A DNA stretch of 21,357 nucleotides from Physcia stellaris (Eukaryota > Ascomycota > Lecanoromycetes > Caliciales > Physciaceae), in NCBI GenBank assembly GCA_018902385.1, contig JABSSW010000124.1, positions 1-21,357 on the forward strand. Reading direction: 5' to 3'. The notes below the pieces were generated by a model that saw only the letters and a program-made list of their open reading frames with translations, was not told where the DNA came from and made no database searches. Positions 1 to 21,357 of the stretch are shown piece by piece; within the stretch, counting starts at the first letter, position 1, and each line of letters starts with the position of its first letter. A program made the translations under genes and the position numbers.

Positions 1-195
1 TTTGAATGATTCAAAACTCAGTTTTGAACCGTTTCGTTGAAACGTTTCGATAGAACTTTGCGAAAGCGTTTTCAGAAGCGTCTGTACGACGTGTTTCAGA
101 AGGTGAATTCGAATCTTCAAATAAGTACATTCGATGTTGTATCAGAATCGATCGAAATTTCATCAAATTTTGAAATTATAAGCGCTCGAATAATT

Positions 196-360
196 TGCAA
201 ACTTTGCAAACAAAGTTTCAATTTCAACGAGAAACTATACGAGCATATTCGCTGTCATGAAATTTCGAAACTCGTCAAAAATTTTTATTTCTCGATCAAT
301 GCAGTCAATTTAGTATGCGAAATCAAGAAAACGTCATTCGTTTCGCATAAATCATTTGCT
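196..360 (+). repeat. C2H2 module, copy 1
   Basis: The finger has Cys codons at 196 and 205 and ends in HIRCH. The CEIKKTS motif begins at 316, followed by FVSHKSF. Frame 1 is open throughout this copy. The finger is complete, so zinc binding would have been possible. Confidence 0.7.
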
Positions 361-487
361 TTTTCTGCAATTCAAAAATCGACAAACGAATTTGCATTAA
401 CATTCAGAACAATCGTTCTATTGAAACGTTTGTCTTTTCGTTTTTACATTCGAAACTAGATCAGAATCAACAGAAAAATCAACAACG

Positions 488-650
488 TGTCGACATTGCG
501 ACGAGACATTCAATTTCAAAAAAATGTTTCGTCAACACAAACGCGAACAACATGCAAAGAAATTTGTCATCAATTCGTCTTTTCGATTTCATGCACTCGA
601 ATCATTAGACGCGACGAAAAAGAAATCAACAGTCAAAAATGTGACGACTT
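488..650 (+). repeat. C2H2 module, copy 2
   Basis: The finger begins CRHCDETFNF and ends HKREQH, with one extra residue between the His pair compared with copies 1 and 3. The second motif, DATKKKS, starts at 608, again +120, but Asp replaces the Cys. This copy is in frame 2, so an indel separates it from copy 1. A further degenerate relative (CEFVEKS) lies near 759. Confidence 0.65.
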
Positions 651-1112
651 TGTTCGCTTCGCAAGAATTGCAAATCTTTGCTCAAAAATCTCAAAAAATC
701 GATGTTCAGAAGCATTCAACTGTCAACTCATCTTTCACGAGTTTTGCATGAAACAATATGCGAATTCGTCGAGAAATCAATTGTCACATGTTCGTTTTTT
801 TCGCAGAAATCATCGATCTTTTTGCAACATCAAGAAATTTTGTAACAAATACGAAAATATCTTTGCAGTTCGTCTCATTCAAAAGCTCGCATCTCTCGAT
901 TACGACATTCAAAATCGCGTGAAAAACACGAAGATTACATCAGATTTGTTTGCAAAAAATGCAAAAATCATCGTCGATATTCGAGCTCAAACTCTTTCGC
1001 ATTCGCGTAAAAATAGAAACTGAACGAGCAATTCTTCAAATATCAACATTCGAATTTGCGTCAAAATCGATGAAAAGATTCTCGATTAAATTAAATCGTT
1101 TGCGTTCGAATT

Positions 1113-1290
1113 TGCAAACGTTGCAAACAAAATTTCAATTTCAATAACAAATTTCACGAGCATATTCGCGAACATCATGTTCGAAAATTTGTTCAAAGTT
1201 TGAATTTCAAAACTTTCGCATCAGAATCTACATGTAAAATCAAAAAAAAGTCAATATTTATTTGCTCATTTGTTTCGTTTGTTTCGCAAA
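1113..1290 (+). repeat. C2H2 module, copy 3
   Basis: The finger begins CKRCKQNFNF and ends HIREHH, in a frame-0 segment open from 1095 to 1475. The CKIKKKS motif starts at 1233, +120 as in the other copies, and is followed by a Cys-Ser-Phe and SQKSF stretch like copy 1. At the DNA level 1106-1200 aligns with 182-280, which makes this a direct duplication. Confidence 0.7.
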
Positions 1291-2127
1291 AATCATTTAT
1301 TTTTTTGCAACATCAAAAAGTCGAATATTCTATTTTTGACAATTTTCAGATCGATGTCGTCAATTCGCTTGAATTTCTCGATTGCGTTACACGAAATCGT
1401 CAAAACGCGCGAAGATTGCAGCAATACTATTCACACGAAATTTTACATCAAAACGAATCGAAATTGTTGCGTTGATTGTTCGTTTACATTTTCGATTTCA
1501 TTTTCTCAAACATTTGTATCGAAATTTTATTTCATTATGAATGATTTGAGTCGCATGTTTCATGAAAAATCTAAATCGTTTGATTTGCAACAACATCACA
1601 ATCATCGTTTTCTCGACAAAATTTCGACGTTAATTCGTCGATCTCGTTTCGCATTTTCGAAAAAGTTTATTTCATTATCGAAAATTTGTTCGAAATGTTC
1701 GATGAAAAATTCAAAAAGAAAGAGTTTATTTCAAAATCAAAACAACGTATTTTTTCGAGCATTTTCAAATCAAATGCAAATCATCGTCTATTTCAAATTT
1801 ACAATCAATCAAAAGTCGTCGATAAATCAAATCTCGAAAAATTCAAAATCGAAAATTTCGAAGACACATGTTTGCGAAATCAATTCGCATTGTTTTGCGA
1901 AATCTTGTTTGAAAAATCGATCGAATTATCGTACAAAATGTTCGAAATCTCTGAAGTCAATTCAAAGATTTCTTTTTTCATTTTCATATTTTTTCGTTTT
2001 TTTTTCGATTTTTTCTTGTTTTCGCATTCGTTTCGATCGTTTTCAACTGAAAGAATGAATTGCATTAACGTTTACAACAAGTCGTTTCGATCATTGATCG
2101 TGTTATTCAATAAAAGTAATGAATTTG

Positions 2128-2165
2128 TCATTTCGAGACGAAACTGAGAAGAGACGAAAAATAAA
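2128..2165 (+). repeat. SRRN-stop tail, copy 1
   Basis: The end of the finger gene reads Ile-Ser-Arg-Arg-Asn-stop and is followed by a GAGACGAAAAATAA-type tract. The same codons and downstream tract recur at 3605-3640 and 15926-15965, so the 3' end of this gene and its flank belong to a repeated sequence. Confidence 0.65.
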
Positions 2166-2275
2166 CGACATTAATATTTTATTATTTAAATCGAAACTAT
2201 CTATAAAACTCGCAAAAACTAATTATTTTTCAAAAAATTTATTACATACACGTTTTACTAGATGAATTATACTGG

Positions 2276-2400
2276 CATCGATTATCGCATGCGCTCAAAT
2301 ATCGATGCGTTAATCGTTGTTACGTTAATTCTACTAATGTGATGAAACTGTTTGTTTCGATATAATCGTATAATCGATTTGAGATTTTCGAAAATTCTCG
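2276..2400 (+). repeat. Internal duplicate, unit 1
   Basis: This unit shares the 18 bases CATCGATTATCGCATGCG (2276-2293) and the ATCGATGCGTTAATCG core with 2502-2620, at offsets of 226 and 224 bases. In one frame it reads KYRCVNRC, as does the right copy near 15690. One of the few GG dinucleotides in the window is at 2274. Confidence 0.7.
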
Positions 2401-2501
2401 ATTGTTTGTTTACTAACTGTCGTCGAAGCTACTCGCGAAAAATTGTATGAATTGATCATTTTTAGAAAATTCGTTACGTTGATGCTTTGAAAATGCAAAT
2501 T

Positions 2502-2620
2502 CATCGATTATCGCATGCGTAAGTATCGATGCGTTAATCGTCGTTGCGTTGATTTTATTAACATAACGAAATTGTTCGTTTCATCGTATAATCGATTTGA
2601 TGTTGCAAAAATTCGACGTT
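2502..2620 (+). repeat. Internal duplicate, unit 2
   Basis: Second member of the ~225-base tandem duplication. It holds the same 18-base and 16-base blocks at 2502-2519 and 2525-2540 and a KYRCVNRRCVDFIN-like reading. Its ending (IN..TKLFVSSYNRF) is closer to the right copy than unit 1 is, so the right copy may have kept only one unit. Confidence 0.65.
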
Positions 2621-3403
2621 TACATTAATGCGAAACGCGTACATTAATGTTTTCATTACATCGAAAAGTTCGATTTTCGATTCTTTACATTCAAAACTAC
2701 ATATCAAATCAAAAGAAACTAGCAATCAATCGTTGATTTGTTTCAACATTTATTTATTGCATCATTCACATTCGTCGCAATGAGCTTTTAAATCAGTCAT
2801 TTCATCAAAACGTTAACGTTTTTCGCTCTTTGCATACAAAATTGAATTAGAATTTACAAAGATTGCATGATAGACGTATCGATTTATTTCTTTTTCTACG
2901 TTTTTCATTTCGAAGTTCTATTTCGCTGTTCGATCTCAATGATTTCGATTTTAGATATTTCGCATAAAATTGCAATCGTCATTCAAACACAAATATTTCT
3001 AGTTTTATTGAAAGTCTGATAGAAGCAAATTGCTATTTTGATCAGAAACTCAAAGCATTAAACAATTTTCTCGTCTCAATCAATCTATTTCAAGATTTTC
3101 AGATTTCAGATATTTTCAAATGACGTATTTTACTATTAAATTGCAAATATCAATGTTCATGTTTTGATGCGAGATTTTGAACTGAAAGTCTAAAGCGTTT
3201 TCATCTTTTTTATTTTGTATTTGTATTAATCATTGATGAACATCGTATGTTTGCTTTGAAATTTACAAAAAAGAGCGCGCTTTTGTTATACTAAAAAACG
3301 CGATATTTCTGCATATTTGATTGTTTTAATAATTTTTCACATTTCGATTCAGACGCAAAATTTTCGAAAACTTCTAGAAAAAACGATCGTTTCATTATAT
3401 TAA

Positions 3404-3625
3404 ATGTCAGATATTTTCGACATTCAAAAATCTTTTAAACATCAAAGTCGCGTCGATTTGCAAAAATCTTTTCGTCGTTTTCAATTCAAATTTCTGTACA
3501 TTTTCATGATTGTCGCGTTCGCTATGAACTCAAAACATTTACGAACAAATCATCGAGATCACGTACATTGTCGATCGATAAAAGAAAAAAAAAACAATGA
3601 GTTGATCGTTTCGAGACGAAATTGA
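3404..3625 (+). pseudogene. Short ORF remnant ending in SRRN
   Basis: A 73-codon open segment with no recognised domain. Only its last residues (NNELIVSRRN-stop) are shared, with the ends of the ORFs at 2147 and about 15945. It sits inside the left long repeat. I read it as the decayed 3' end of the same coding family rather than a small gene. Confidence 0.4.
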
Positions 3626-3849
3626 AAAAACGAGAAATAATGTGACGAGCGTAAATCGATTTCAACATTTGAAATCGACATTTGATCAATCATTAAAGTT
3701 AACATCTTTATTTTATCGCATCGAGTGTTAAAATCGAGATTCGTCTATGATCAAATTTTCTACATATGTTTTGTCAAATTCTCTGTATTTGTCTTTTCAT
3801 TTCGATATTTTCGTGTAATTATGTAGTAGTATCATATCATTGCATAAAG

Positions 3850-6800
3850 TTTACAAATTGAAAATAAAAAATGTTAATGAATATATAAATTGAATTTGTA
3901 AATAAAATTTGTAATTTAATTGATATTTTTAAAAATTAAAACATTTGAAACATGTGATCGTTTTTATAATAAAATAACGAATTCGCGAATCGTCACGATG
4001 CGTCAAAATACGTTAATGATGTAAATATTTCAAAAAAAAACAACAAATCGTTTTTAACGTTAAACGATACGAACGTTAAACGAAATGAATTCAATCGCAT
4101 AAAACACGTTAACGATCAAAATAATTTTTTCATTTTAACACGATTTAACGATCGAATTAAAAGTGAAACAATTTGATTGAAATTAATTCGATCGAACGCG
4201 ATTGATCGCGTTTAATCGATTTCATTTAATTTTTTTGACGATTGCATGAATATCGTTACATTTTATTTTCATATTCGTCGATTTTCATTTAATCGTCATA
4301 CGAATATATTAACATTTCGAATTCGAAAAAAAAATTATTGCATTGTTACATAACGTGCAATTCGACGATCAAATTCGATATTATTCGCAAATTCATATAT
4401 CACTATTATTTTTTTAATTGTTTGTTTGACGCGTTTGTACGAATACGAATTACATGTCGAAAATATCGATCACAATGATTATTTTCAATGTTTTTCGTGA
4501 AAAAATTTGAAAAAAATTGAACGTAAATTATTGAACAAATGATCGTATTCGCATTGATTTAAAAATAAACAAAAAAACGTACAAAATAATATACGTTTTT
4601 TTGAAAAAAAAATTGATTAAAAATGAAATGTTGAATGACAAATTTAATCATGTCAATATCAAAAAAAATTGCAATCGATTTTTATCACAATTAAAAAAAA
4701 TATTTTACAATATTCGAAAACGTTGATTTCGCATAAAAAAAAAACATGTTTATTTTATTGAATTTAAAAAATCAACAATAATTGCAAAAAAAAACGTACA
4801 AAATTAATATCATCAAAAAAATCATGCAATAATAATTTTATTATAAAATTTTCTTTATTCAATGTCGTTTTCGATACAATCATATTTTTTTTTTCGAAAA
4901 AAAAATTGTTATAACGAGATGTGTCGATCAAAAAACATTATTTTTTTAAATATTTTTTTTGAGAAAATCACGATGAAACATTTGAAATTTGATCAATTTG
5001 TACAAATATTGAAAAAAAATGTGAAAATAAATTTCGAATTGAAATTATACATTGCGAATTATATAAATTGAAAAATATCAAAAATCAAATACGATTTTTT
5101 CGTTTTTGAAAAATCGCGATTTTCGAAATGTATTTTTATGAATTTTATCATTTGCAATTTTTATTAAATTAAATCAAAATAAATTATCAATAAAAAAAAA
5201 AAAAAATTTTGATTTAACGATTTGTATTAAAAAATTAATGTAACGAATTATAAAAACGATTGACAAAATAATTTTTCAAAAAATCAACATTTTGCGATTA
5301 ATTCGATTCAAAATATTAATTATATTAACGTCGACATCGTTGTGCAAATCGTCGTAACAACGACGATTTTTATTTGTTCAAATTTTTTCGTTTTCAATTA
5401 TTTTTCATTTTTTTTTTCATTTTTTGTTTTTAATTCGTTTTTATTTTATTTTTCATTATTCGTTTTCAATTCATTTTTTCAACAATTCATTTTTTCAACA
5501 ATTCATTTTTCGTATTTAAAATCATTTTTCAAGTTTTTTTTTTTTTTTCGTTCATTTTTTTCACGATTCGTTTCGTTTTTGCGATTCATAAAAATCGAAA
5601 ACGAAAATTGCAACAAAAAATATATTCAAATAAAATCAAAAAAATTGACAAAAATTGAAAATGCGATTGAAAACAAATTGAATTTAATGCAAATTTGATT
5701 GATGTTAAACAATATATAAATTTTTGCAATTACGTCAATTGTGAAAATTTCGAAAATCGTATTCGAATGTTGAAAATTTTCGCGATCGCACAATTCATAA
5801 ATCGTATTCAAACATTGTTGATATTCATTTTTGACATCATTTAATTGTTGTTGAAATTATTGAACACGATCGAAAACAATTTACAAATATTTAAATAAAT
5901 TCAAATGCGATCGAAATACGACGTTGATTGATTTGATTTTATTTCGAATATTTTGTCATATTTCGAATTTCAATTTAACATCAAAAACAATCGTGTTGCG
6001 AAAATTTTGAATTGTCGCAATTAAATGTTTGTGACGATTTGTCAATTTTCGTAATTGTGTTTTTAATTTTGAATATTTCGAAAAACATCGCAAAAAAATA
6101 CAAATCATAAAAAAACAACGATTGCGATAAATATTATTGACGTCGTTTCATTCATCGTTCATTGAAATTTTTGAATTCGAAATTTGAAAAAAAAAATTAT
6201 GTTAAAAATGAATATCAATATAACGAAAAAACGATGTTTCATTTTTTTGTCGATGTTGATCGTCATAATCGAACATTTCGATCACAAAAAAAATCATGTT
6301 TAATATGAATAATAATTTAATACATTTGAAATTGTTTTAACAAATTATTTGATTTCAATCGCACAATTTTGCAAAATATAAACAATCAAACGAAAAATAA
6401 ACGACACGTTCGTATATTTGATAAAACACGTTAAAAATTAAATAAATTTAAATTTTCGCGAAACACGTTAAACAACAAAATAATTTGACGATTAAAACAA
6501 ACAATCGTTGTTTTAATCGACGACAAAAATTTTGTTCAATCAATTTCGTCAATTACAATTAAAAACGTTTCGCGTTAAATTGCATTGTTTTTTTTTATTT
6601 TTTTATTTTTGATACATATTTGATGTCGCGTTGATTGTAACATATTTATTTTTCAATTTTTGTGTTTTTATATCAAAATTCAACATAATGTTTTCGATTC
6701 ACGATTGATTCGATTGATTAATTCAATGATTTCAAACAAATTAAATCGAATCAAAAACGCGAAAATCGACAATGCGAAATTTCACGTACAACATTCATAA

Positions 6801-8300
6801 TCGATATTCGAAATTGTTTTTTTTGCGATAATCAATATTGCAATTAATTGTTTATGAATTAAATTGTTCAATCAAATGATGTTGTTGATTCAAAAACAAA
6901 TTCATTATTTGCACGCATATAACAAAATACATTTAAATACAATCGCAAAAAAAACGTACAAAAATCATTCAAAAACGCAAAATTATTTCGAATAATTTCA
7001 AAAATATATCGAACGACGAAATCGATACAAAAAACGACAACAACAATAAAAATTCGAAAAAAAAAACATGAATATTACATCAAAACGACGTTTGACAATT
7101 GTTGTAAATCAAATTATTCATGAATAATTCAACAACGTATTGAATCATTTACAGTTTAAAATTTCGATATCAATCGATATTTTCAACATTTTTACATCAA
7201 TTGTGAAAAAACAATCGACATCAAATCGAAACAAATCAAACGATTTCATTTTTTTATCAAAAACAAACAATCGAAACTATCGACGTAATATGAATCGACA
7301 TTTTTTTCGACAAAATTTTTTGTTACATGAACGTTCGAAAAAAACATCGATTACACGATAATGTTGAAAAATCATTAAACGACGAAAAAACAAAAAAAAA
7401 TTCTTTAATGATGAACATGCATATTTGATGAAACGAATTTTTTTTTATTTTCAAACATTAATATTCAATGAATGTATCAAAATTAAATTAAACATTTGAG
7501 CAAAACATAATTTCGATGCAATTAACAATTTTATTTTGAAAATGTAAAAAATATGCAAACGAATGTTTGAGCGCAACATAAAACGACATTCGAAAATTAT
7601 AAATATATCGTAAAATTTCGAAACGCGAATCGTAAAATCATTTACATAAAAAATATGTAAATACATTAACGTCAACACAAATATACAATTCAAACGACAT
7701 TTTTTGATTTAATACAATTTATCGAATTAAAAACATAATGATTTCGTATTATAAATTCGAAATTATTGTCAATTTTCATTAATTGATTGCGAAATTGTTA
7801 ACACAATTATATTTTCATTCGTTTTAATTACGAGAATTTTGAATCGAAAATAAATAAATGCGTGTCAATTATTACAATAAAAATTAACAAATGTTGTGTA
7901 ATTTATTTCATTTATCGTCGTCATTATAATTATCGCGATTTACGACATATTTTTCAAAAATTCTAAAAATGATTTCGATTTTCAAATGTACATCAAAAAC
8001 ATATTCAATAAATTTCGTTTTGTTATAATATTTTTTGTAATCACAATCATACATTATGCGATTAAAAAATTATTTCGCGAATAATAAAAAAACAAACATG
8101 ATATTCGAAAATTTAACGATAAAAAATATGTTACGTGTCATTTCGATTTTTTACATTATTAACATGCAACAAACAATTACGAATTTTACATGTTAATTTG
8201 AAAAAATTTGAATTTTCGTGTTTAAAACGAAATTTGCAAATATTTTCAAAACAAAATCAAAAATCGAATCACAATCAACGCAAAAAACAATGAAATTTCA
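3850..8300. other. AT desert, no gene recognised
   Basis: About 4.4 kb with stops in all frames and only short Phe/Ile/Lys/Asn-rich open segments (4862-5071, 5342-5698, 7140-7361 and 7451-7693 on the minus strand), none with a recognisable motif. In 6001-6300 I found no CT, AG, CC or GG. The stretch is probably mutated transposon or spacer DNA. Homopolymer A and T runs are frequent. Confidence 0.6.
5400..5560. repeat. T-rich low-complexity tract
   Basis: Runs of T broken by C-A and C-G steps, including a 17-base unit repeated in tandem near 5473-5510 (T-run, then CAACAATTCAT). The Phe-rich open segment over it (5342-5698) looks like a membrane protein only because TTT and TTC are the main codons, so I do not call a gene. 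Confidence 0.5.
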
Positions 8301-8312
8301 AAAATTATTTCA

Positions 8313-9480
8313 TTGAAATGTGATTATTTCATCGAAACGATCAAAATTTTGCGAAACAACAAAAAAATTGTTTTACGCGTTTTTACATCAAACAATTTTC
8401 AAATTGATATTAATAATTCGAATATGATCGATAAATTCGTTAATCGAAAAATTAATGTCAATTATAACAATATCATATCATGTTTTTTAAAAAAACAGTT
8501 TGACACGATTTCGAATTTTCGTTTTGTTTTCAAATTTTTTACAAACAATGATCGCGTGACATCAATTGTCGAAAATTCGAATATCGATTCATTGAAAACA
8601 AAAAAAATAACGAAAAATAAAAAAAAACGAACTCAATACGAAAACGAAACAATTGAAAAACGTGTCGAAAAATTGATAAATCGAATTCACACATGCGATG
8701 TCAATGTGTTTATTGTTCAATCATAAATAACAAAATATAAAAAGCGCAAATTTTGAAATCGAATCGTCGAAAAAAATGAAACTTATTATTTTATTGAACA
8801 ACAAAACGATTAAAAATGAACGTTCACGTACGATTTGAATTGACAAACATGATGTAAAAAAATGAATGTACAAAACGAAAAAATATTTGAATATATTTTG
8901 CATCGAAAATTTTGATTTATTAAAACGAATAAAAATTACAATTCAATGAAGAAAAAAATGCAAATGAATTATAAAAAACGTTTCGAAAAATCAATAACGA
9001 TGCAAAAAAATGTGATTACGAAAACGATTTAATATATATTGAATACAAATTGTGCATTTCGTGTTTGATAAAAACAATCAATCAAAATTTAATTGATAGT
9101 TTAACACGAATCGATAAATTCAATGATAAAAATGACGTTAATGATCATTTTAAAACAAAAATTTCAAAACAAACGCGAAATGAAAAAAATAAAAAATATT
9201 TGATACGACAAAAACGAAACAAATTGTCAATGATTTTGATATGTAAAAAACGATTTGAATGTTCAAAACAAAAAAAACGAAATAAATGAAAAAATTATTA
9301 AAAAATAAAATGATTTTTTGAATGCATGATGCGCACGAACAACAATCAACAAAACAAAAATATCATCAATCAAAAAATATGCGAAAGAAAATGAATTTAT
9401 TTGATGCGTTTTGAAACATTTTGAAACAAATCAATGTTTTAAATGTGAATTTTGAATCAACAATGAACGATTTAAAGCAA
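8313..9480 (+). other. Region before element A Gag, unrecognised open segments
   Basis: Two open segments, 8313-8726 (137 codons) and 9050-9289 (79 codons), are Lys/Asn-rich and match nothing I recognise. A 4-residue CFKC stands near 9434 without a full zinc-knuckle pattern. The position just upstream of the Gag remnant suggests the 5' part of Gag or the leader of element A, but this is inference. CT and AG are nearly absent, so original codons are heavily changed. Confidence 0.25.
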
Positions 9481-9537
9481 ATTTCAATTGTTTGAAATTT
9501 GTTTTTGACGAAACGTTGTTGATTTAAAACAATGAAA

Positions 9538-9998
9538 AACAATAATTTTGACTATTTGATTAAACGATTCGAAACAAATCTCAAACGTCAAAATCAATCG
9601 AACATTTTTCTCGAAATTGTTCAATCAATTGTTTCATTATTCGAAACAGAATTTGACAAACGAATTTCGCGAAAAATTCATTTCTCAATTTCAACGAATC
9701 ATTGTTAATAACGAAAAATTCACAACAATCGAGAGTTTAAAAAAATTGATCGAAAAAATAAATCAAAAATTACATATTTTTGAAATCGCTCGTCATGAAA
9801 ATTTCGCGATTAGAAATTTTTCACGAATCATTTTCAAAACATTTATCGTTAAAATCGTGATTCGTGACAACGTGTTCAACGTTAAAAAAATCATGTTTAT
9901 CGTCGATCAAATCATCATGAAATTTTTTTTACAAAAAAAACGACATCGACAAAAATTATTATCGTTGTGAAAATTTCAATCATTTGATACGAAATTGT
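9538..9998 (+). pseudogene. Gag remnant with CCHC zinc knuckle (element A)
   Basis: Frame 1 from 9538 reads NNFDYLIKRFE and frame 2 from about 9602 to 9970 reads QLFHYSKQNLTNEFREKF and onward. This resembles the C-terminal part of fungal Gypsy Gag, where a 'leaf of short helices' region precedes the knuckle. Frame 0 at 9966-9998 then gives C-x4-H-x4-C (CENFNHLIRNC). The first Cys of the usual C-x2-C is Tyr here. The knuckle packages RNA in working elements. Two frame changes and the lost Cys make this non-functional. Placement directly before the protease supports the call, but Gag diverges fast, so the homology is moderate. Confidence 0.55.
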
Positions 9999-10275
9999 TT
10001 TTTTTCTAAAATCATTGACATTTGATTATTCAAAAAAATTAAACAAAAAAAAAATACTTTAGCAATCAACGAGATGAATGAATTTTTGATGAAATTTAAA
10101 TTCGATCAAATTTTTTTGAATAATTATTTTAATGATATCAACAATGAAATTTTTTTAATCATGAATCGAAAAACGTTTAAATCTTTTCAAAATCGCGACG
10201 AAAATGTTGTTTATTTCAACAATATTCAAAACATTCAACACGTTCAATAAATTTTAAAACAATTTTTTAATGATT

Positions 10276-10720
10276 AAATGTACATTAATTTTTGATAAAT
10301 ACAAACACAATTTGCAAACATTAATGAATATAAATATCATTGAATACGTTTTCATTAATGAAAAAATTGCGCAAATGATTTGTGAAACATTTTAAATAAT
10401 TTTTGTGATTTTGTCACGATCGAAATTCGTCAACGAATTCGATGATCGTGAAATTAAATTCATTATTTATGTTATTTATTTTACATTTATCGTACAGAAT
10501 TATTCGAAAATTATTATTTTTATATTTATTATCAAAATCGAAATTCATTCGTTAATATTGAATAAATTTTGAATGAACGTTCATGAAATCATTTTCGACA
10601 TAAAAAACGATAAAATTATTTTCAAATTCGATCGTTGTTTTCATTTCGAAATATTCAAAATTTTTAAAATCAAAAACGAACGTTCAATTTCGTTTAAAAA
10701 ATTATATTTTTTTCATCAAT
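10276..10720 (+). pseudogene. Retroviral-type aspartic protease remnant (element A)
   Basis: Frame 1. The flap-side start KCTLIFDKYKHNLQ leads to LMNINIIEYVFI at 10321, at the place of the family's Leu-x-Asp-Thr/Ser-Gly-Ala active site: Asp has become Asn (GAN to AAN), and the Gly has become Asn. Downstream are FVNEFDDREIK, a TYPE-like IYFTFIVQN strand, and near 10560 the segment preceding MNVHEIIFD, where a conserved Trp reads TGA (10570-10572). Another stop (TAA) lies near 10395. In a live element this enzyme would cut the Gag-Pol polyprotein. The loss of the catalytic Asp alone would inactivate it. Confidence 0.7.
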
Positions 10721-10793
10721 ATCGTCAAACAAATTTTCGATATCGATGAATTTTTAAAAATATCAAATTATTCAAAAACGATCGACGTCATTT

Positions 10794-11183
10794 GTGTTTA
10801 AAATTAATTTTTTTTTTATCGTCGAGAATTTCAAGAATGAAAAATTTTTTTTCAAAAATTTATTGAATTTTAATTCTCGATATGTTATTGAAAAAATTGA
10901 TAAAAAATATTTTTTTGTCAAATTTTCGAAAAAAAAACGACGAATTAAAATTATACGAAATTTTCAACAATTTATTTTTTTGAAAAATTTATTCGAAAAT
11001 CGAATTTAATCAAAAAATTTGTTCGACGATTTAGTCGACGATTTAAAATTTCGTTTTTTGTTAATGAAAACGACGAACAAAATTTCGATTTTGATGTTTT
11101 TTTGAATATCGTTTTTATCGACGTCGTTGTTTATCAATTTTTGACAAAATCAAAAAAAAAAAATTAAAACGTTTTCGCTAATC
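10794..11183 (+). other. Protease-RT connector, unrecognised
   Basis: A 71-codon Phe/Lys-rich open segment (10794-11009) followed by stop-rich sequence. Its place between protease and RT marks it as the poorly conserved spacer of Pol. No motif was seen. Confidence 0.4.
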
Positions 11184-12210
11184 ATGAAAAAATTAAATGA
11201 AATTATTGATAACATCAAAAAAAATCTAATCAAAACAAAGTTTGATTCAGATTTCGATTTCAAATTTTTTTTTAAAATCATGAAAACAATCGTCGAGAAA
11301 TTGAAACGAAAAATTTTTGATTTTTTTAAACGATTCGAAAACGTGTTCAATTTCAAAAAAATCGATAAATTATTTTTTCATAAATTTTACGATCACAAAA
11401 TCGAATTGACAAAAAAATCGAAACAATTGTTTCGAAATCGAATTTATTTTTTATCATCAAAAAAATTCGAGATTTTTCAAAAATATTTTCACGAAAATTT
11501 TCAAAAAAATTTATCAATTTAAACAAAACATTGTATGTATCGTTCATTTTATTCATCGTTAAATCAAACGAACAATTTTTTTTATGTATAAATTATCGAA
11601 AATTGAACGTTATAATCAAACACAATGATTATTTTATATCATTGATTGAAAAGATTTTTGTTCGAATTATAAATTGCAAATTTTTGTTCAAATTGAACAT
11701 TATATCGATTTTCAATGAATTTCGAATAAATTCACAAAACGAAAAATTGATTATTTTTATATGTTCGTTAAACATTTACAAATATCATGTATTATTTTTC
11801 GAATTAATCAATGATTCGACGAATTGACAACATTATATGAACGATTTGTTGTTCGAATACATTAATCATTTTTGTCAAATATATTTGAACGATATTTTTA
11901 TTTACAACAAAATTCGAAAAAAGCATGAACGACATTTTACACAAATATTTCAAAAATTAAAAAAATCGAATTTCAAATTAATATCAAGAAATGCGAATTT
12001 TTTCAAACGAAAATTTCATTTTTGAACGTTATATTATCGACAAAAAATTTGCGTATGAATTTCAAAAAAATTCAAAATATCGTCAATTGAATTCGTTCAA
12101 TTTGCATTAAAAAAATATAAACGTTTATAAAATTTTGCAATTTTTATCGTCGTTTTTTCAAAACATTTTTCAAATTTATCAAATTTTTCATTCGAATGAT
12201 AAAAAAAAAA
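11184..12210 (+). pseudogene. Reverse transcriptase remnant (element A)
   Basis: The N-terminal part is in frame 0 to 11522 (FYDHKIEL, then the YFLSSKKFEIFQKY helix). Frame 2 from 11531 gives the fingers and palm: FLCINYRKLN, IISIFNEFRI, YKYHVLFFELIN, MNDLLFEYINHFCQ. The YxDD box reads YLND at 11882-11893, so a catalytic Asp is lost. Frame 1 further on gives RMNFKKIQNIVN, a TGA at the conserved Trp site (12088-12090), and FCNFYRRF (near 12155), the thumb/connection signature of Gypsy RTs. TGA at 11825-11827 sits before QHYMND, again a usual Trp position in this family. Three frames are needed to read it. The identification as Gypsy RT is firm. Confidence 0.92.
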
Positions 12211-12229
12211 TTGATTTCGAATGAATCGA

Positions 12230-12700
12230 TTTCGTCAATGAAACGTTCGAAACATTGAAAAAACAAATTATCGAAATTTTAATATTTCGACATTACGATC
12301 GTAATCGTAAAATTATATTAAAAATTGATTCATTCGATTGATATTTTGATGAAATTTTGTCGCAATACGACGACGAAAAAGTTTTTCATTCGATAATTTT
12401 TTTTAATAAAAAAATGATTTTTGTCGAATGCAATTACGAAATATACGATAAAAAATTTTTAATCATTATTCGATATTTGAAACATTGAAAATTCGAATTC
12501 GAAAATATCGACGAATTCGTGAAAATTTACATCGATCACAAAAATTTGAAAATTTTCATGACAAACAAAAAATTTATTTTTCGTCAAATACGTTGAACAA
12601 AAATTTTGATCGATTACAATATCAAAATTCAATATCAATTTGAAATCAAAAATGTTAAAACGAACGTTTTGATTCGAATGTTTGAATTTCGTTTTGTCGA
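12230..12700 (+). pseudogene. RNase H remnant (element A)
   Basis: Frame 0. HYDRNRKIILKID leads to the first Asp, then [18 protein letters not shown], where the usual Gly-Gly after the Trp is Asp-Glu. Next come [18 protein letters not shown] (the conserved N/CxYxxYxKE-type helix, with the Glu now Lys), and IYIDHKNLKIFM. Conserved Trp sites read TGA at 12339-12341, 12486-12488 and 12594-12596. In working elements this domain removes RNA from the hybrid. The Gly-Gly to Asp-Glu and Trp to TGA changes are each what G-to-A after a purine gives. Confidence 0.88.
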
Positions 12701-12949
12701 TGACGACGAACGAGAATTTTATAAAAAACAAATTTTGTTGTCGTTTTTTCGATTGCAATTATGTTCGATTGACGTTTAAAATGATTTGTACGAACGAATT
12801 ATGCAAATTAATCGAAAAAATGACGATTGCATTAATTATCGTCAAATTTTAATCGATGAACAAAACATCAACGAAAAATGAATTTACAAAATTATTCAAA
12901 TCGAAACGACGTTTTTTTCAAAAACGAAAATTTATAAATATCAAATCGA

Positions 12950-13950
12950 TTAAATTTTATGATTGAAATAATTCGCGATGTTCACGATCAATTTTTTTGT
13001 GTTCATTCAAACATGAATCGCATTGAGAAATTCATTAAACGTTATTATTATTGATTTAATATGCGATTATTTATCAAACGTTACATTCGTAATTGTCACA
13101 AATGTCAACGATTTAAAATTTTACACGATGATCGTCATGAATTGCTAATATCATTGTTGATTTTTAATCAACGATGAATGAATATTTCGATAAATTTCAT
13201 AATCGAATTATTTGAATTAAAAAAAAACAACGTTATTTGCATTATTATCGATCGATTAATTAAAAAACGTCATTATGTTTTTTGCGTGATCGATAATGAC
13301 GATTTGACAATCGAAATTTGTGTCAAAATATTGTTTCATTACGTATTTCGCACGTATGAATTTTTTTTATCGTTTCGAATCGAAATGATCAATTTGTAAA
13401 TCGCGTTTGAATTTACTTTTGCAAACGTTTGAAAATCAAATATAAATTGTTTACGACGTTTCAATTTCAAATCGATGATCAAATCGAACGAATTAATCAA
13501 AACATTGAAATTCGTTTACGTTTGTATTGTAATTATTGTCAAAACGATTGAATTAATTGAATCGACGTCATGAAATTCGTTGACAACAATGACGTTTTCG
13601 CAATCACGAATTTCATTTCGTTTTTCATCAACAAAAATTATCATTTTCGAATGATTTTTGATTCGAATTTGAATGATTACGAAATCATTAAAAAACGTTT
13701 ATTAATCAAACAAAACGAATTTATCGTCGAAAAAATGAATCGCATCATCGAATAAATCAAAATTAATGTTGTTGATATTAAACAAAAAATGATTGTTCGA
13801 ATCAACAAATTTCGTTTCTCGATCAATTTTGAAATAAAAAATTATGTATGATTAAATCGTCGTCACATCAAAACAATTCGTTCATTTGACAAATTGAATG
13901 ACAAAAAATTAAATTTATATTTCGTTGTCAATTATGTAAAAATCAAAACG
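12950..13950 (+). pseudogene. Integrase remnant (element A)
   Basis: The HHCC domain in frame 2 has His codons at 12983 and 13004 and the Cys pair in NCHKC (13094 and 13103). TGA replaces Trp in YYY-TGA-FNMRLF (13052) and in NQR-TGA-MNI (13175). The catalytic core starts ISINFIIEL; the first DDE Asp is Asn (codon 13193-13195). IIIDRLIKKRHY and FHYVFRTYEF follow. Between 13399 and 13447 the frame changes to 1, and the QTDGQTER-type motif reads QIDDQIER near 13465. NQNIEIRLR, then two TGA codons (13549, 13558), then FVDNNDV lead into LLIKQ and VEKMNRIIE. A C-terminal NRRHIK / DKLNDKKL stretch runs to about 13930. No chromodomain was seen. Confidence 0.92.
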
Positions 13951-14084
13951 TTGACGTGATAATGTTTAAACGCAAACTACGTAACTAAATTTTATACACA
14001 AATCATGTTTTTACACAATAAAAAACTAATTCATCGTTTTTCAAATCACAGAGTTTCAACAAAATTTTTACGTCGAATTAGATT
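13951..14084. other. Spacer after integrase
   Basis: No coding signal. CT and AG start to reappear here (AAACTACGTAACTAA near 13974 and CAGAG near 14049), marking the edge of the most strongly mutated zone. Confidence 0.4.
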
Positions 14085-14900
14085 TTGATTGAATCACACA
14101 TCGCAATGACTCGATTTTCGACGAATATTCGTCATTCATTTATAACGATTTCTTTTGCGTTTTCTTTTTTTTTTATCACAATTTCAAATTTTATTCAAAA
14201 TCTCGATTATCGTTTGACAAAACATTTTCAAAATCACAACGTGAATAATATTATGAATTTTTGTGACATCGTTAACACTTTTTGATCAAAAAATTCACAA
14301 CAATGAATATAACGTTTCAACAAACGATCGATGCGTTATCGTTTTCAATTCAAATTTTGAATTTCGACGCAATGTACAATCGAAATCGCGATGTTTACGA
14401 TCAAACTGTTGCTCGTTGCGAGATGAAACAATTCGTTCAATCAAATTTCAAACAACAATGCAAAATTCTGATTATGATAATTACTATTTTGTTTGAATAT
14501 TCGAAATCGAAACAATCGAAATTGCAACGTGACAAAATCAAACGTCATGAATTGAAACAAGCACGAACAATTTTCAAAATCTTCGAAAAAAAACGAGTTC
14601 GTTGAAAAACGAGAACAAAACGATTTTGAATTTTGATTTTGAATTGCGAAAGACGCAAATAAATGCAACGTTTCAAATTGTTTTGTAGTTATGTTGTGAG
14701 AGAGAATTTGACGAAGAAAATGAATTGAAAGTACACGAGCGTTGATATAGAATAAAGATTGCAAACTGTAATGAAAAAAAAAAATAACAAATATAGAAAT
14801 TGATCGTCGTTGTTTTGATTTATGAAAATTTTGAACTCGAAAATTGTTTTGCTATAAGATGTATTCGCAGTAATTGTTTTACACAATATGATTGTCATTT
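14085..14900 (+). other. Less-mutated island with unrecognised ORF remnant
   Basis: CT and AG are frequent again (for example GAGAGAGA at about 14699 and AGATG near 14858), in contrast to both flanks. The longest + segment is 14282-14605 (107 codons): an N-terminal part, then a Lys/Arg/Gln/Glu-rich likely helix (RDKIKRHELKQARTIFK). This composition resembles the charged N-terminal region ahead of Gag in element B-type polyproteins, but I cannot confirm that. Minus-strand segments here (14441-14764, 14689-14898) look like shadows. It may be a later insertion, a segment that escaped mutation, or the 3' end of element A. Confidence 0.35.
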
Positions 14901-15583
14901 CTTTTCAAATTCGAATCATTTCGTTGTCAAAAAAAAATATTGTTTACGAATTGAAATTGCTCGATGACATGCACATTTATTCAATTTTTCATTTTTGATT
15001 GTTGAAAAAAATTCAACGATTCATTGAAAAAACAACATAACGATTTTTCGAAATTCATTATTGCAAATGAAACGTTCGAATGAAAATTGAACGATATATT
15101 GCAATTTCGATATTATTATTATCGTTTTCAATATCGTTGTAAATGATCGAATTGAAATTTTCACGATCGCGTTTGATATTATGTTGACGACGACGAATTT
15201 CAAAATGTTCAAAACATTGTGAATGTTTTTCACGAAATCAATTCAAAAACAACAAATTTTGTTTTACGAAATGATTAAACAATGATTTTCAAAAATATTA
15301 TCATCGATTAAAGATCGTGACATCGACGTTAAATTTGTCAAACATTCATTTTCGAATTGACATCGATAATTCACAATTTTATCAATTTTTTATTGTTTAC
15401 AGTCAAAATTTACGACGTTTAAAAAATTGAATCGTGTCAAAAACATTTTCAAAAATTGTTGTTTGATTTTATTGAACGATAAAAAATAAATGCATGTAAA
15501 CAAACACGTTGTTTGAAATTGAAAAACATACGAATTTGTCAACAAAATTTTCAACAAAATTCTCAAATGTTTATTAATGATCG
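14901..15583 (+). other. Strongly mutated stretch, possible Gag scrap
   Basis: CT and AG are rare again. In one + frame about 15325-15600 reads a long stretch broken only by a few stops, mostly TGA, including LNRVKNIFKN, LILLNDKK and KTYEFVNKIFNKI. Stops next to MHVNKHVV could be former Trp sites, and helix-rich text of this type occurs in retrotransposon Gag. This is a weak resemblance only. The stretch runs directly into the right long repeat. Confidence 0.25.
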
Positions 15584-16175
15584 ACGAAACTATTTGTACG
15601 ATTTGTTCAAAACTAATTGTTTTTCAAAAATTTTTTCACATATTCATTTTACAAAATGAAATATACGCATCAAAAAACGCACGAAATTAAATATCGATGC
15701 GTTAATCGTTGTCGCATTGATTTTATTAACATTATCAAATTGTTTGTTTCAAAATATGATCGATTTTATGTTTTGAAAATTTTCAACGAATTCATTTCGC
15801 GAGCGAAATTCATTTCGCAAAATTTCGCATTTGTTTCGTTATTTCAACAATCATTTCATTCAACGTTATTTAACAAAACGTTTGAAACGCGTTGAACATT
15901 CACGATTACGAAAAAAAAATTGTTAATCGTTTCGAGACGAAATTGAAAAAAAAAACGAAAAATAATGTGACGAACGTGCATCGAATTCAACATTTGACAA
16001 AGTTAATATCGTGTTAACATCGTTATTTTATCACATCGAATGTTAAAGTCGAAATTCGTTTTGACGCATTCGAAAAATCAAATTTTTTACATATGTTTTT
16101 GCAAATTTTCATGTATTTGCTTTTTATTTAGAAATTCTCGTGTAATTATGTATTAATATTATATCAATGCATAAC
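15584..16175 (+). repeat. Right copy of long direct repeat
   Basis: About 590 bases, aligning with the two ends of 2193-3848 and lacking its middle ~1 kb. An open segment (15617-15895, 92 codons) reads KYRCVNRCRIDFINIIKLF, better preserved than in the left copy. The tail reads LIVSRRN-stop (15926-15945), then TGTGACGAACGTGCATCG and TGTAATTATGTATTAATATT, ending TGCATAA at 16168-16174. It keeps fewer CT/AG than the left copy, so the two copies have been mutated to different degrees. Confidence 0.65.
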
Positions 16176-17676
16176 ATCTCACACGCAAAACAATTGCGAA
16201 ATGTTAATTTTTGCAATTTTATCAAATTCAAATTTAATTTTGAAGTTTTGCATGAACTTTTTGAAAAAAAATTCACGAACAAATTTGTTTATTTTTAACA
16301 AATGATTTGAGAAATCGATCAATTTACTTTACAAAACATCGACATTTTTTCGTTTGCATATTTTTGAAATATCAAACATGTTATGACACAAAATCAAATT
16401 AAATAATATGAATTTATGAAATAGTTTTCGCATGAATTTTGACAAAAATTTCGTTTTTGTTTTATATGATTTGAGTGATGATTCGACGATTAAATCGTCG
16501 ATTTTGTACATAAATTGACATTTTTCGCATTTTAATTTTTAAACAATTTAATTCACATTTCAAACATAACAATTGATAACATCATTCAAACGATGATTTG
16601 TACGTAAACAAAACGACATCATTATTTGTTTTTTAACGTATCAATTTTCAAACAATTTTGTATTCAATATTCAAGTCAATTGTTTATCAATATTTTTTCG
16701 TTATCGTAATCGAAAACTTTATTGCTTTTTGATTGATTTCGACGAACAATCAATTTTTTTCATTCAATCGAAAATTAGAATTTCAATCAAATTTTCTCAA
16801 CTTTTTACAATTTTCAACAAAGACGATTGATTTCTCATTCAAATATTCAAAGCATTTCGATTTTTCGTGAAAATTCGCATTGTTATCGTTTAATGACGAC
16901 ACATTTAAATGTCAATTCATCATCGAATTTTTGTTTGATTCGAACAATTCAATTTAACGATTTTATTTGTTTTTTCATCAACAAGTAATTTGCTCAACAA
17001 GTTTTGAAAATTTCAATTTGTTTTTTTTTTGTTTATCATCATTTTATTTCAAATTTCAATACGACATATCATTTTTTAAAAGAATACGAATCGACGAGAA
17101 TTTGCAAAAATTAATTTTCATTTAAGTCATTTTGATTGTTTTCATATTACAAATCATTCGCATTGCGTTTGAATTATTCGATTACATCGATACAATCGAT
17201 TCAATTTATTTTTTCAATACATCGACAAAAGTTATTGTGAACAATATCGTAATTAATTTTTTTTAAATCAACATCGTTGTCAATCATTAATCATTCGATT
17301 TCGATCAATATTGTTTATTCAACAAAATGAATCGTCGACAAAATTCGTTTTCGCAAAAATTTTAAAGTTTTCGTGATTGTCACAAAAGTTTATCGAAATA
17401 ATCAATTATTTTTCGATTGAATTAATGATCGCGTTACGTTATTTATTTTCAATTTAAAATCGACGATTGCAAATTTTTTTGATATTTTTACATTTATTTT
17501 TCGAAAAATTTACGTCGTAAATTTCAAATCATCTCGTCGATGTTGTTTTCAACGACGAAACAACATCATAATTTCGTTGAATATCATTTTTCGAAACACA
17601 AAAATATCGAATTTATTTTTGCATTTAATTCAAACATGACGAATAAAATAACAATTGACAAAACACGAAATTCATT
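16176..17676. other. No gene recognised; moderate CT/AG
   Basis: About 1.5 kb between the right long repeat and the first Gag signal of element B. CT/AG are of intermediate density to about 17400 and then fall. The only segment of note, 16329-16511 on the minus strand (60 codons), has no motif. This may be the LTR or leader of element B; no second copy of it lies in the window to test that. Confidence 0.4.
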
Positions 17677-18368
17677 CAACAACAATGACAAATTTTTCAA
17701 ACATTGATTGAAAATGTTCGAAACGATGTTCAAACAAAATTTCAAAATCTTGTCGAATTATCAAATTCAATTGAATTTTTAATAATGATGATGACGTCAA
17801 ATGAAATATTCAAAAAACAAAATTTTTTTCATTCATGATACGAAGAAAAAAACGTTATTATCGACAATTCGATCGAACATTCAAACAAAAACACATATTT
17901 TCGAAACGTTCATTTTTACATTGAAAAAATTAAAAATATGACGTTGTTCAAAAATGTTAATATAATTCGAACAAATTTTTATAATTGCATGCGTGATCAC
18001 GCATTACGATAATATATTGAAATCGTCAATGACGATTTGAAAAATTGATCAAATTAAAGAAACGTAAAAAAATGAAAACGTTTATTGTTAAAACGTTAAA
18101 AAAATCGTCGTCAACGACGTTGACGATAATCACGAAAAAAAAATATATTATGAAAAATGTTCGCAAACATAAAAAATCTTTCGATTTCGTTAAAATAATA
18201 ATCAAAAAAATTAAATCGATTATGATGTTAATTTATTCACAATTTTGTTTTATTTACAATGAATTGAAATTGAAATCTCGACGAAATTTAATTAAATCGA
18301 CAGAAAAAATTATCATGAATGAATTTTTTCAACAATTTGACGATAAAAAAAATATAATAAAACATTGA
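17677..18368 (+). pseudogene. Gag remnant (element B)
   Basis: Frame 1 from 17677 gives QIFQTLIENVRNDVQ and, from 17938, MTLFKNVNIIRTNFYNCMRDHALR, then a stop at the place of the LxWY Trp typical of Gag. Frame 0 (18045-18368) continues with KKYIMKNVRKHKKSFDFVK, FIYNELKLKSRRNLIK and MNEFFQQFDDKKNI. This matches the conserved capsid pattern of the family (Arg-Lys-x-Arg-Glu-Pro...Tyr/Phe-Val, Phe-Arg-Arg-Asp, Phe-Leu-x-x-Leu-Asp). The closing TGA (18366-18368) again stands at a Trp position. The Pro and Glu of RKxREP are Phe/Lys here, as expected after mutation. The protein would form the particle shell. Confidence 0.75.
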
Positions 18369-18943
18369 AAACAAATATTGTTTTTATTATCAATTCGAAA
18401 ATGATCGTCGTTTTCAATTCATTTATTGTTTTCAAATTTCAATTTCATTCGATTCGTATAATATATTTTTTTTCATCAATGAGCGTAATGATTACGAAAA
18501 TTTCAATGAATTTTTTTTTCGCAAATCACGACAAAATATTCAATTTCATATCAATTTGACAAACAAAATAACGTTTACGTTTTTCAATAACAACAACGTT
18601 CGTATCAATCAAATTATTCAAATCGACAACAATCGACACAAAATATGCAAAAACGTTTATACGCAAATCAACAATATCGATTTCAACAAACGTAACAAAA
18701 CGAAATTCAAAAAAATCGAAACGTTCGATTCGCGATTTCAATATTCGCAATCTTTACGTTTTAATAATTATTTTGTTGATTTTTCAAATTTATTTTCGTT
18801 TTCATTTTAAGCAAAATATTTATTTTAATCAAAATAAAACGTTTAATTATAATGAAACATTATATCGACGAACGTATTTTGCGAACGAAAAAAACGAAAA
18901 ACAATTATTCGAACGATGAAAAAATTATTAAAATGATTACAAC
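18369..18943 (+). pseudogene. Asn/Gln-rich linker of element B Gag
   Basis: The segments at 18365-18559 and 18556-18810 are Asn/Gln/Phe-rich with no domain. Related polyproteins have a low-complexity linker between capsid and zinc finger, which fits. Minus-strand segments over it (18526-18750, 18843-19100) are shadows. Confidence 0.4.
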
Positions 18944-19282
18944 ATGAATATTGAGAACGCGTCGAAAATATTTGTGATAAATGATAAATATCATGACGAA
19001 AAGCATTTCGAAACTCAAAAATTCTATAAAAATTATGTGATTCATGAATTATTCGAATATTTTGTGAATATTTCAACAAAGCAAACAAAAATTTATTCAT
19101 GCAAACGTTGTCAATCGAAATTTTATTTTAATAATAAATTTCATCGATTGTTGCGTTCGTGTCAAACAATTTCGATTAAATTTGACACGTTGTCGACGAA
19201 AAATATTCATAATTATCAAACATTTACAATACAATCAAACGTCAAAACAAATACACGATTCAATTTCGAATTTCGTTCGTGA
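18944..19282 (+). pseudogene. C2HC zinc-finger segment (element B)
   Basis: A 112-codon open segment in frame 2. The finger lies at 19100-19162: CKRCQSKFYFNNKFHR, then Leu where His is expected, and Leu-Arg-Ser-Cys. Cys, Cys and the last Cys are kept, but the His ligand is lost. It resembles the fingers at 196, 488 and 1113, most closely 1113 (CKRC...FNNKFH). The segment ends in FRS-TGA-RYV (19280-19282), where the TGA is at a Trp site and the frame continues into the protease. Confidence 0.75.
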
Positions 19283-19995
19283 CGTTACGTCACGATAAAA
19301 ACAAACATAAAACAATTTTTTATCAATATATGCGTTGATACAAAATGCGATACATCGTTGATAAATCGTAAATTTTTGATGCAAAAAATATTCGATTACA
19401 AAACGCAAATTCGATTAAATTCGAAATTTTTTAAAATTCGCGATATTGACGATGTCGTCGTGATTACAATTGATTATATTTCGTTCATTTTTCGAATTTT
19501 TGAAATCGCGATTGATGACAAAAATGCGATCGTCACATTTACGCGTCAAGTTTACATAATGAAAAATTGAAAACAAAAATTCTTTAAATAATGACATATT
19601 TGAATTTGAACGAATGAATATAAATGTAAACAAACAAATGATTATTATTGAAAGTTGCAAAAACATCAAAATTAAATTAAATGTTATTAATGTTGATTCG
19701 CAAATCAAACGCGTTGCTCGTGTTAATAAAATTATTAAAATTTCAATCAAATCAATTTTTACAATTTCATTCAAATTACGTGATAAAAATAATTTGTTTA
19801 TTGAACGCGATTTTATGTTTACGTCAATACAAATTGAACGATTAAATCAAAACGAAAATGTATTTTTTTATATTATCGACGCACATACAAAAGTCGTTCA
19901 AATTCATAACGTCGACGTTGAAAATGTTTACATTTTCAAAAATACGCGTTTTGAATTCGTACAAAAATACGAAAAAAAAAATGTTATTTAATTAA
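19283..19995 (+). pseudogene. Aspartic protease and following conserved domain (element B)
   Basis: Frame 2 continues to 19570. The active-site strand reads ICVDTKCDTSLI, with the catalytic Asp (19337-19339) and Thr kept but Gly changed to Lys, which is what GGA to AAA gives after an A. Then come KIRDIDDVVV, FRIFEIAIDDKN and TRQVYIMKN. The frame changes to 0 near 19575, where NNDIFEFERMNINV stands for the family's L-x-GNDI-LxPE motif. The next segment to 19991 (RVARVNKIIKI, FKLRDKNNLF, RDFMFTSIQ, VFFYIIDAHTKVVQIHN, FKNTRFEFV) is the conserved domain that follows the protease in this lineage. A further frame change near 19980 leads to KCYLINSKYV. Confidence 0.78.
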
Positions 19996-20062
19996 TTCGA
20001 AATACGTTCATTTAATTGTTAATGTTCATAAGTTTGTTTTTAAAAATTGATTCAAACAAACG

Positions 20063-21357
20063 TTGAAATTTAATGTTTCGATTATAACAATTGACGCGAT
20101 TATAACGATTAATTATAAAAATTTGCACGATGCGATCGCGATTAATTTCGTCAATGCAAATGACAATTTTGAAATCAATTTTGCACGCAATTTTAACGAT
20201 TTTATTATTGTAAATTTTAATATTAATGTGAAAAAAATTTTGTTTGTTGAAATTATCGTTTACGATGACGTTAACGTTCGAATTAAATTTGCAAACGTTG
20301 CGTTAAATTATTGAAAATTATAAAACGACAACGAATTTACAATGAAAATTTCGAAAAATGAATGAATGTCAATTGAATTCAAACTCGATGTCAAAATAAA
20401 AACAACAAAAATTTATTCATTGAATTTTGCAAATCGAAAATTAATTAATCAAATTTTTAATAAATTGCACGTTCAAAATCGCATGAAATACATCATTCAA
20501 TTCATTTCGCATGATTATTCAATTTTCGCAATATAAAAAATCGTATTTAAATCGAATGATTCAAAACGCAAAAAGCGAATCGTTGTGAATATTCGCGAAT
20601 TAAACAAAATCATTTTCATCGATTTTTTATTCAATGTCATTTCAATCAAAACATTATTTCAATCGTAATCAAATGCAAATTCATATTTGTTTTCGACGCA
20701 ACGAATTTTTTCATTAATAATTAATGAAATTCGCAAATCGATATAAATTTATCGTCGTTTTTCATAGAAAACAAAAACAATTTAACGTTGCAATGATGAA
20801 ATTCAAAAATTCATCTTCGTACGTACAACGACGAATCGATTTCATTTTCGAAATTTTCACGAATTTGTTCGTGTTTACGTAAATAACATTGTTGTTTTTT
20901 TTTAAATTTTGAAAAACATATGATTTATTTACATTCGATATTGAAACGATTGAATATTTATGAAATTAATTTCTCGTCGAAAAATTTTTTTCGATTATTT
21001 CACGATCGTATTTTTTGTTCAAAAAATCGACGTTTTTGATTTCATTATTGCAATCGATAAATTGAAAACAATAATTAAATTGAATTTTTTTATATTTTCA
21101 AAATTTGAAAATTTATTTAAATTTTACAAATGATTACGAAATTTTATCGCGTTTTATGTTCAAAAAAACGAACGCGTTATAACGTCGCAAAATTTTATTT
21201 TTACGTCAATCATCGTTCAACAAAAACATCATTCGAAAAATTTATTCGAAAAAAATTGTAATGAACAATTTTTCAATTGAAAAAAAATTAAAATCATATC
21301 GACTATTGCAAAAAGATTTTTAACAAAATTTCATTTTTTGATACATTTCAATTTCGA
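20063..21357 (+). pseudogene. Reverse transcriptase remnant, partial (element B)
   Basis: The N-terminal extension 20063-20314 (ending YDDVNVRIKFANVALNY) is followed by ENE-TGA-MSIE (TGA at 20363, Trp site). The first RT box is KKRIVVNIRELNKI (about 20570-20614, Asp and Gly replaced). Frame 0 near 20778 gives QFNVAMMKFKNSSSYVQRR, the FNVAVMGYxNSPAYVQRR-type box, with Gly to Lys. Frame 2 gives VRVYVNNIVVFF: the YVDD catalytic pair is YVNN at 20876-20887. Later parts include KIDVFDFI and, at 21131, a TGA before LRNFIAFYV, where the family has Gly-Trp-Leu-Arg. Several frame changes. The sequence ends inside the connection region (FLIHFN). Confidence 0.88.

Follow-up and report, generated by a model that had tools for sequence, protein, structure and literature searches.

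A 2025 survey of fungal genomes describes defences like repeat-induced point mutation (RIP) as sharing a preference for the cytosine of CpA (PMC12543289). In Tad1 of Neurospora crassa, RIPCAL placed CpT changes above CpA (PMC2621366), Anisogramma has been given a signature of CpA with CpT (PMC10998396), and in a 2021 survey CpT-to-TpT was dominant in the alignments of RIP-capable control fungi (PMC7882544). Among other Lecanoromycetes, RIP has been recorded in two members by the TpA/CpA-based indices of that survey (PMC7882544), and in Cladonia rangiformis by a paper in whose available text the terms CpA, CpT, and dinucleotide are absent (PMC12542154). In this study, we analyzed the whole of contig C124 (JABSSW010000124.1; 21,357 bp, hereafter the window) of Physcia stellaris, a lichen-forming fungus (mycobiont) of the Lecanoromycetes, Caliciales. 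We believe that the window is very probably the remnant of a retroelement that was mutated by a repeat-directed C-to-T process of the RIP kind. The best reading of the data is a preference order of CpC > CpT >> CpA, CpG, produced by RIP or a close relative of it. The C-to-T changes lie on both strands, more than one repeat family is affected, and most random loci are untouched.

Exact counting of the window gave 1 CC, 2 GG, 178 CT, and 202 AG, so that these four are depleted while CpA and CpG are retained (CA 1446, CG 1192, TG 1082). The null model consisted of 200 mononucleotide shuffles, in which the means of CC, GG, CT, and AG were 372, 288, 1017, and 968, and the lowest values were 329, 244, 964, and 891, respectively. 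Because these minima are far above the counts of the window, the depletion is far past chance. The observed/expected ratios of CG and TA were 3.65 and 0.45, respectively; canonical RIP yields TpA, which is low here. A preliminary description, made by eye, had placed three CC/GG near 29, 101, and 2274; the lone CC stands at 29 and the two GGs at 102 and 2274, that is, within one base. It had also stated that CpA and CpG are abundant and that cytosine before a pyrimidine (CpY) is depleted across most of 3850–14080 and 17400–21357, with none of the four dinucleotides in 6001–6300, and exact counting agreed on each point. All four number 0 in 6001–6300. The heavily depleted interior (3850–14080) has 0.0 CC+GG, 5.9 CT+AG, 53 CG, and 114 CA+TG per kb, and the second such stretch (17400–21357) has 0.0 CC+GG and 7.1 CT+AG per kb; some CT/AG is left in 14001–15000 and 16001–17000 too. 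In the less mutated part (1–3850, GC 0.307), with 0.8 CC+GG and 57.7 CT+AG per kb, CC is gone while CT is only about halved. None of these stretches carries a strand. For comparison, seven unaffected random loci have 93–158 CC+GG and 122–138 CT+AG per kb.

The sequence context of the changes was read against L044 and L045, un-mutated copies that belong to two further retroelement families and were found via a reverse transcriptase search. Between L044 and its mutated relative L046, C was changed to T at 269/320 CpC, 145/309 CpT, 11/321 CpA, and 8/312 CpG sites; between L044 and L048, the corresponding values were 310/343, 234/322, 29/326, and 18/332, and in the second family, between L045 and L049, they were 243/256, 200/262, 14/253, and 8/232, respectively. 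Across the three mutated copies this amounts to 84, 90, and 95% for CpC, 47, 73, and 76% for CpT, 3–9% for CpA, and 3–5% for CpG; as rates, CpC is 1.8–2.9 times CpT and 25–53 times CpA. CpC exceeded CpT by Fisher's test with p values of 2.8e-23 (L046), 3.1e-9 (L048), and 7.1e-10 (L049), and CpA and CpG did not differ by the same test (p 0.64, 0.096, and 0.29, respectively). A control comparison of two un-mutated copies gave hardly any context effect (4.8, 4.4, 3.5, and 3.1%). As in RIP, the repeats thus carry C:G to T:A transitions on each strand, and the copy alignments support the both-strand process preferring CpC and CpT that the preliminary description had proposed, with CpC above CpT as a refinement. 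When the sites were split by the 5' base, 52–71% of CpT and 87–92% of CpC were changed, so the preceding base is of little weight, as had also been claimed. CpA-type RIP, an APOBEC-like 5' context, and the decay of methylated CpG were all rejected by the context counts. Where CpC stood before A, G, or T, 928/1007 sites were mutated, compared with 190/250 for the first C of CpCpC; this difference is expected if the inner C turns to T first, which leaves the slower CpT.

These tables also bear on two other explanations. If all repeat cytosines were deaminated but repair then restored CpA and CpG, or a mark shielded them, the spared contexts would indeed be CpG and CpA, and CpG is a common fungal methylation site (PMC8016269). 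However, with CpA/CpG at 3–5% and CpC at 84–95% in L046 and L049, a near-perfect rescue of two contexts would be required, and the order of CpC over CpT would stay unexplained; we consider this improbable. The probability also seems small that repeats carry methylated CpY, which is slowly lost through spontaneous deamination, with no active mutation process. DNA methyltransferase genes are present and the copies are graded, as such decay would have it, but these copies show no erosion of CpG, and their CpC C-to-T level of 84–95% set beside C-to-A/G changes of 0.4–1.4% (T-to-C, 1.6–2.4%) is a very large excess for a passive process.

The copies can be ordered by mutation load from untouched to saturated ones, and along this graded series CC+GG was lost before CT+AG. 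CC+GG and CT+AG were 141 and 126 per kb in L044, 10 and 77 in L046, 5 and 72 in L047, 1 and 40 in L048, and 0 and 39 in L049, which belongs to another family, while CG (59–68 per kb) and CA+TG (124–131 per kb) were nearly constant throughout the series from L044 to L049. In 150 scored reverse transcriptase matches (of 527 candidates), there were 250 TGA, 33 TAA, and 3 TAG stops, and 10 matches were stop-free. This TGA excess is expected if TGG becomes TGA through CpC while CAA and CAG, which would need CpA changes to give TAA and TAG, are mostly spared. A base-composition bias or an assembly artefact might be suspected, since the DNA is AT-rich and the draft assembly was made from Nanopore and Illumina reads. 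A general AT bias was rejected because the density of CpG and CpA hardly changes, and the signature tracks homologous copies and reading-frame logic and is contradicted as an artefact by the context tables; we regard this explanation as extremely improbable. L046 (contig C95) and L047 (contig C51) share nearly all mutated CpY sites (of the CpT sites, 146 were T in both, 142 were C in both, and 24 were different), which indicates that an already mutated sequence was copied. After copying, L047 gained 33 CpY and 4 CpA changes, and L046 gained 6 and 1, respectively. A scan of viral contigs found no relatives of the L044 protein.

The window itself holds a decayed retroelement of the long terminal repeat (LTR) type, because direct repeats frame a weak reverse transcriptase match. 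The long terminal-type direct repeat has its left copy at 3589–3847 (+ strand), which is 77.5% identical to the right copy (15911–16174, + strand) over an alignment of 276 columns; the two are about 12.3 kb apart and have 58 (left) and 23 (right) CpY+RpG per kb, where RpG is the same site on the other strand. The reverse transcriptase remnant (PF00078) lies at 11837–12025 on the + strand, with an E value of 2.3e-5 and 24.7 bits, under the Pfam cut-off of 29.6. The longest frame starting with ATG, GTG, or TTG is 262 aa. The frames at 37–459 and 18944–19282 show a C2H2-like Cys/His spacing, with weak Pfam scores below the cut-off. Part of the element (9600–10000, + strand, 401 bp) was used as a copy probe and gave 40 scored genome matches including itself, i.e., 39 others. 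On contig C58, element copies at 9034–9415 (+) and 17526–17907 (−) are oppositely oriented, have an equal probe score, and are separated by about 8.1 kb, and this pair is possibly an inverted duplication.

Twenty stretches at copies of the element and ten random 5-kb stretches were compared. High-scoring segment pairs (HSPs) below 300 bp or 75% identity were left out of the pooled comparison, and the fate table also omitted pairs whose difference was under 30 CpY per kb, so that 72 HSPs were kept of 296 counted. In these 72 HSPs, the C of the less mutated copy was T in the other at 826/853 CpC, 12779/14336 CpT, 5078/34214 CpA (15%), and 2164/33089 CpG (6.5%) sites. When the proxy copy L031 was set against each of the 20 loci (HSPs of at least 300 bp), the changes reached 82–100% for CpC, 62–98% for CpT, 5–25% for CpA, and 2–24% for CpG, and CpC and CpT were far above CpA and CpG in 20/20 loci. 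In L032, CpA and CpG changes against L031 were both 24%, and some other process therefore also erodes old copies. L032 (contig C2:1463500–1473300) is the oldest-looking stretch, and its second half has 11–20% GC per 500 bp.

At the loci that were searched for copies, repeated DNA was mutated and single-copy DNA was spared. Of the ten random 5-kb loci, seven have 1132–1423 CpY/RpG sites; the counts are 58 and 91 at two others and 563 at the last. The affected locus L035 has 59 genome matches including itself (58 further), L042, which is half-affected, matches one partner over nearly its full length (88% over 3.8 kb) and two short stretches, and the unaffected L037 matches itself alone and is single-copy. 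The frames of L042 look retroelement-like by eye. CC and CT were ordinary at the seven unaffected loci and at the methyltransferase loci L009–L012, with single-copy status shown for L037 only. The preliminary description had named three outcomes that would overturn it, namely normal CC/CT frequencies on exact counting, C-to-T changes mainly at CpA or CpG in copy alignments, and the same depletion in single-copy genes; all three checks were run, and none of these outcomes appeared. The CC/CT frequencies were not normal beside the shuffles, and the changes fell mainly on CpC and CpT. At L018, L028, and L031, the depletion stops near where homology ends. Among the 5S rRNA matches (47 of 1658 candidates scored), 7/8 score 77–89 bits and are in good order. 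The eighth, on contig C14:433396–433503, is a weaker match of 57 bits.

The assembly analyzed has 43.97 Mb in 147 contigs; the published genome has 46.57 Mb and 43.32% GC from Nanopore and Illumina reads, and its paper describes a culture raised from ascospores and also mentions abundant apothecia (PMC7513301). In the main text of the genome paper, as far as available, the terms "repeat-induced", "transposable", and "AT-rich" are absent (PMC7513301). The search for RID/Masc1-type and DIM-2-type methyltransferases suggested by the preliminary description returned two RID-class genes (contigs C5 and C6) and one DIM-2-like gene (contig C3), and the RID/Masc1 class is thus represented in the genome, as RIP would need. 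The C5 gene has SPPCQFFSDAHT with EQT and an SPPCQ motif, and the C6 gene (locus L009, contig C6:791557–792528) has SPPCQSFSPAQS with EET and an SPPCQ motif, followed by SPAQ after the catalytic PCQ. The DIM-2-like gene has PF00145, DUF7893, and a BAH match below the cut-off. For the methyltransferase tree, 103 of 196 rows were kept; rows lacking the motif or length were dropped, as were bacterial rows (P0227 onward) and a randomly chosen share of the unnamed rows. Usnea and other lichen genera are among the rows that surround the C5 gene. The C6 gene belongs to a 15-row clade whose stem is long (1.1; support 100/100) and in which Heterodermia is the only other named member; long branches meet in this tree according to the tool's warning, and the DIM-2 branch is very long. 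The five members of the C6 clade that were examined have SPAQ or SPMQ after the catalytic PCQ, whereas most other rows have SPAHT or SDAHT.

Most likely, duplicated DNA would be recognized around the sexual cycle, and a DNA methyltransferase of the RID/DIM-2 group would read the pyrimidine 3' of the target C. In repeated rounds, CpC would become TpC first and CpT would become TpT later, until mostly CpA and CpG remain. A RID-class enzyme is the first candidate for the mutating enzyme and DIM-2 the second. It is possible, and we propose it tentatively, that the Physcia line gave rise to a RIP enzyme that reads the 3' neighbour of the target C differently, with the divergent C6 gene as one candidate. 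That the same process acts mainly by DIM-2 in heterochromatin, instead of by a RID-class enzyme, we hold to be somewhat unlikely. The genome has a DIM-2-like gene, the mutated copies look old and repeatedly mutated, and at L019, L023, and L026 part of the depletion reaches beyond the mapped homology; on the other hand, that at L018, L028, and L031 ends close to where homology stops. DIM-2-dependent RIP reportedly leans to CpC/CpT. Neurospora DIM-2 methylates with a CpT preference, and older repeats are DIM-2-dependent there (2026 review, PMC13297926; PMC11969663), but the DIM-2 of Zymoseptoria tritici drives changes at CpA, with hardly any methylation of CpT (PMC8016269).

Several observations weigh against the repeat-directed C-to-T process of the RIP kind as we read it. 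The copy search covered three of the ten random loci (L035, L042, and L037) and left out the affected L036 and six unaffected ones. The depletion extends about 800, 1800, and 400 bp beyond the last homology to the compared copies at L019, L023, and L026, respectively. CpA is weakly hit in old copies (5–25% against 2–24% for CpG; 15% against 6.5% in the pooled table), i.e., it is not wholly spared and shows a weak excess over CpG there. In L032 against L031, CpC (9/11) is not higher than CpT. The LTR pair of the window, read from left C to right T, gives small numbers (CpT 8/12, CpA 5/30, CpG 1/26), and 4 of its sites changed in the reverse direction. The number of observations is overstated in the pooled table, because the same copies recur in its non-independent pairs, and for L046 and L047, because both share nearly all changes. 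A search for strand-wise runs of changes yielded nothing more than a very small covariance on the same strand in L046. The match of the C6 gene holds two internal TGA, which we read as a predicted intron. The process is incomplete, because the un-mutated repeat copies L043 (contig C5) and L044 (contig C12) exist, which are 95% identical over 4 kb; their differences at codon positions 1, 2, and 3 number 9, 5, and 89 of 805 sites, and this concentration at the third position points to purifying selection in spite of the mutation process. Finally, the timing and the present activity of the process are inferred.

The preliminary description had taken CpC/CpT as a context not known to be described as the dominant one in RIP. 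CpT can hardly be called new, because CpT preference is already in print for some fungi (PMC4352252, PMC2621366, PMC7882544); the apparent novelty is that CpC comes first while CpA and CpG stay near background, and CpC-first RIP was not found in a literature search that covered the older key studies only partly. The Physcia genome is a strong counter-example to the shared CpA preference that the 2025 survey claims (PMC12543289). The composite RIP index was −0.69 to −1.10 in the mutated stretches (20–34% GC), lower than in gene-rich controls, and tools with CpA-based indices would therefore score these stretches as RIP-free. Both the stop codons that arise (TGA) and the way in which mutated repeats should be recognized are altered. 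A natural shift of target choice beside two RID-class genes and one DIM-2-like gene makes the question of what determines the target base of RID or DIM-2 directly testable. If an enzyme of the C6 type was indeed reprogrammed, duplication of RID could re-program the target choice of RIP, and fungi with such RIP would have been misfiled as RIP-free by CpA-based indices.

In Neurospora, CpC ranks as a poor RIP target. The process in Physcia resembles canonical RIP of N. crassa by RID in its both-strand C-to-T changes, its tie to repeats, its RID-class genes, and its mostly intact 5S genes. Canonical RIP, however, prefers CpA (PMC4352252; PMC12543289), while in Physcia CpC comes first and CpA is near background (3–9% against 84–95% for CpC), and TA/AT is not raised (0.39–0.59 in mutated stretches and 0.61–0.76 in controls). 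DIM-2-dependent RIP is similar in that Physcia has a DIM-2-like gene and Neurospora shows CpT-leaning methylation (PMC13297926), and it differs by the CpA changes of Zymoseptoria (PMC8016269) and by a wide spread into flanks, which was not clearly seen in Physcia. The control fungi of the 2021 survey have positive TpA/CpA-based indices (PMC7882544), whereas the composite index of the mutated Physcia DNA is negative. Hypermutation in Basidiomycota likewise changes C to T in repeats, but it targets CpG (PMC4014442, PMC4352252), the context best spared in Physcia. In Magnaporthe oryzae, Botrytis cinerea, and Sclerotinia sclerotiorum, CpT is a major RIP target in copies of transposable elements, as it is here, but it is hit alongside CpA, and the available part of the source lists no CpC signature (PMC4352252); in Physcia, CpT is a target as well, CpA is near background and not a main target, and CpC stands above CpT.

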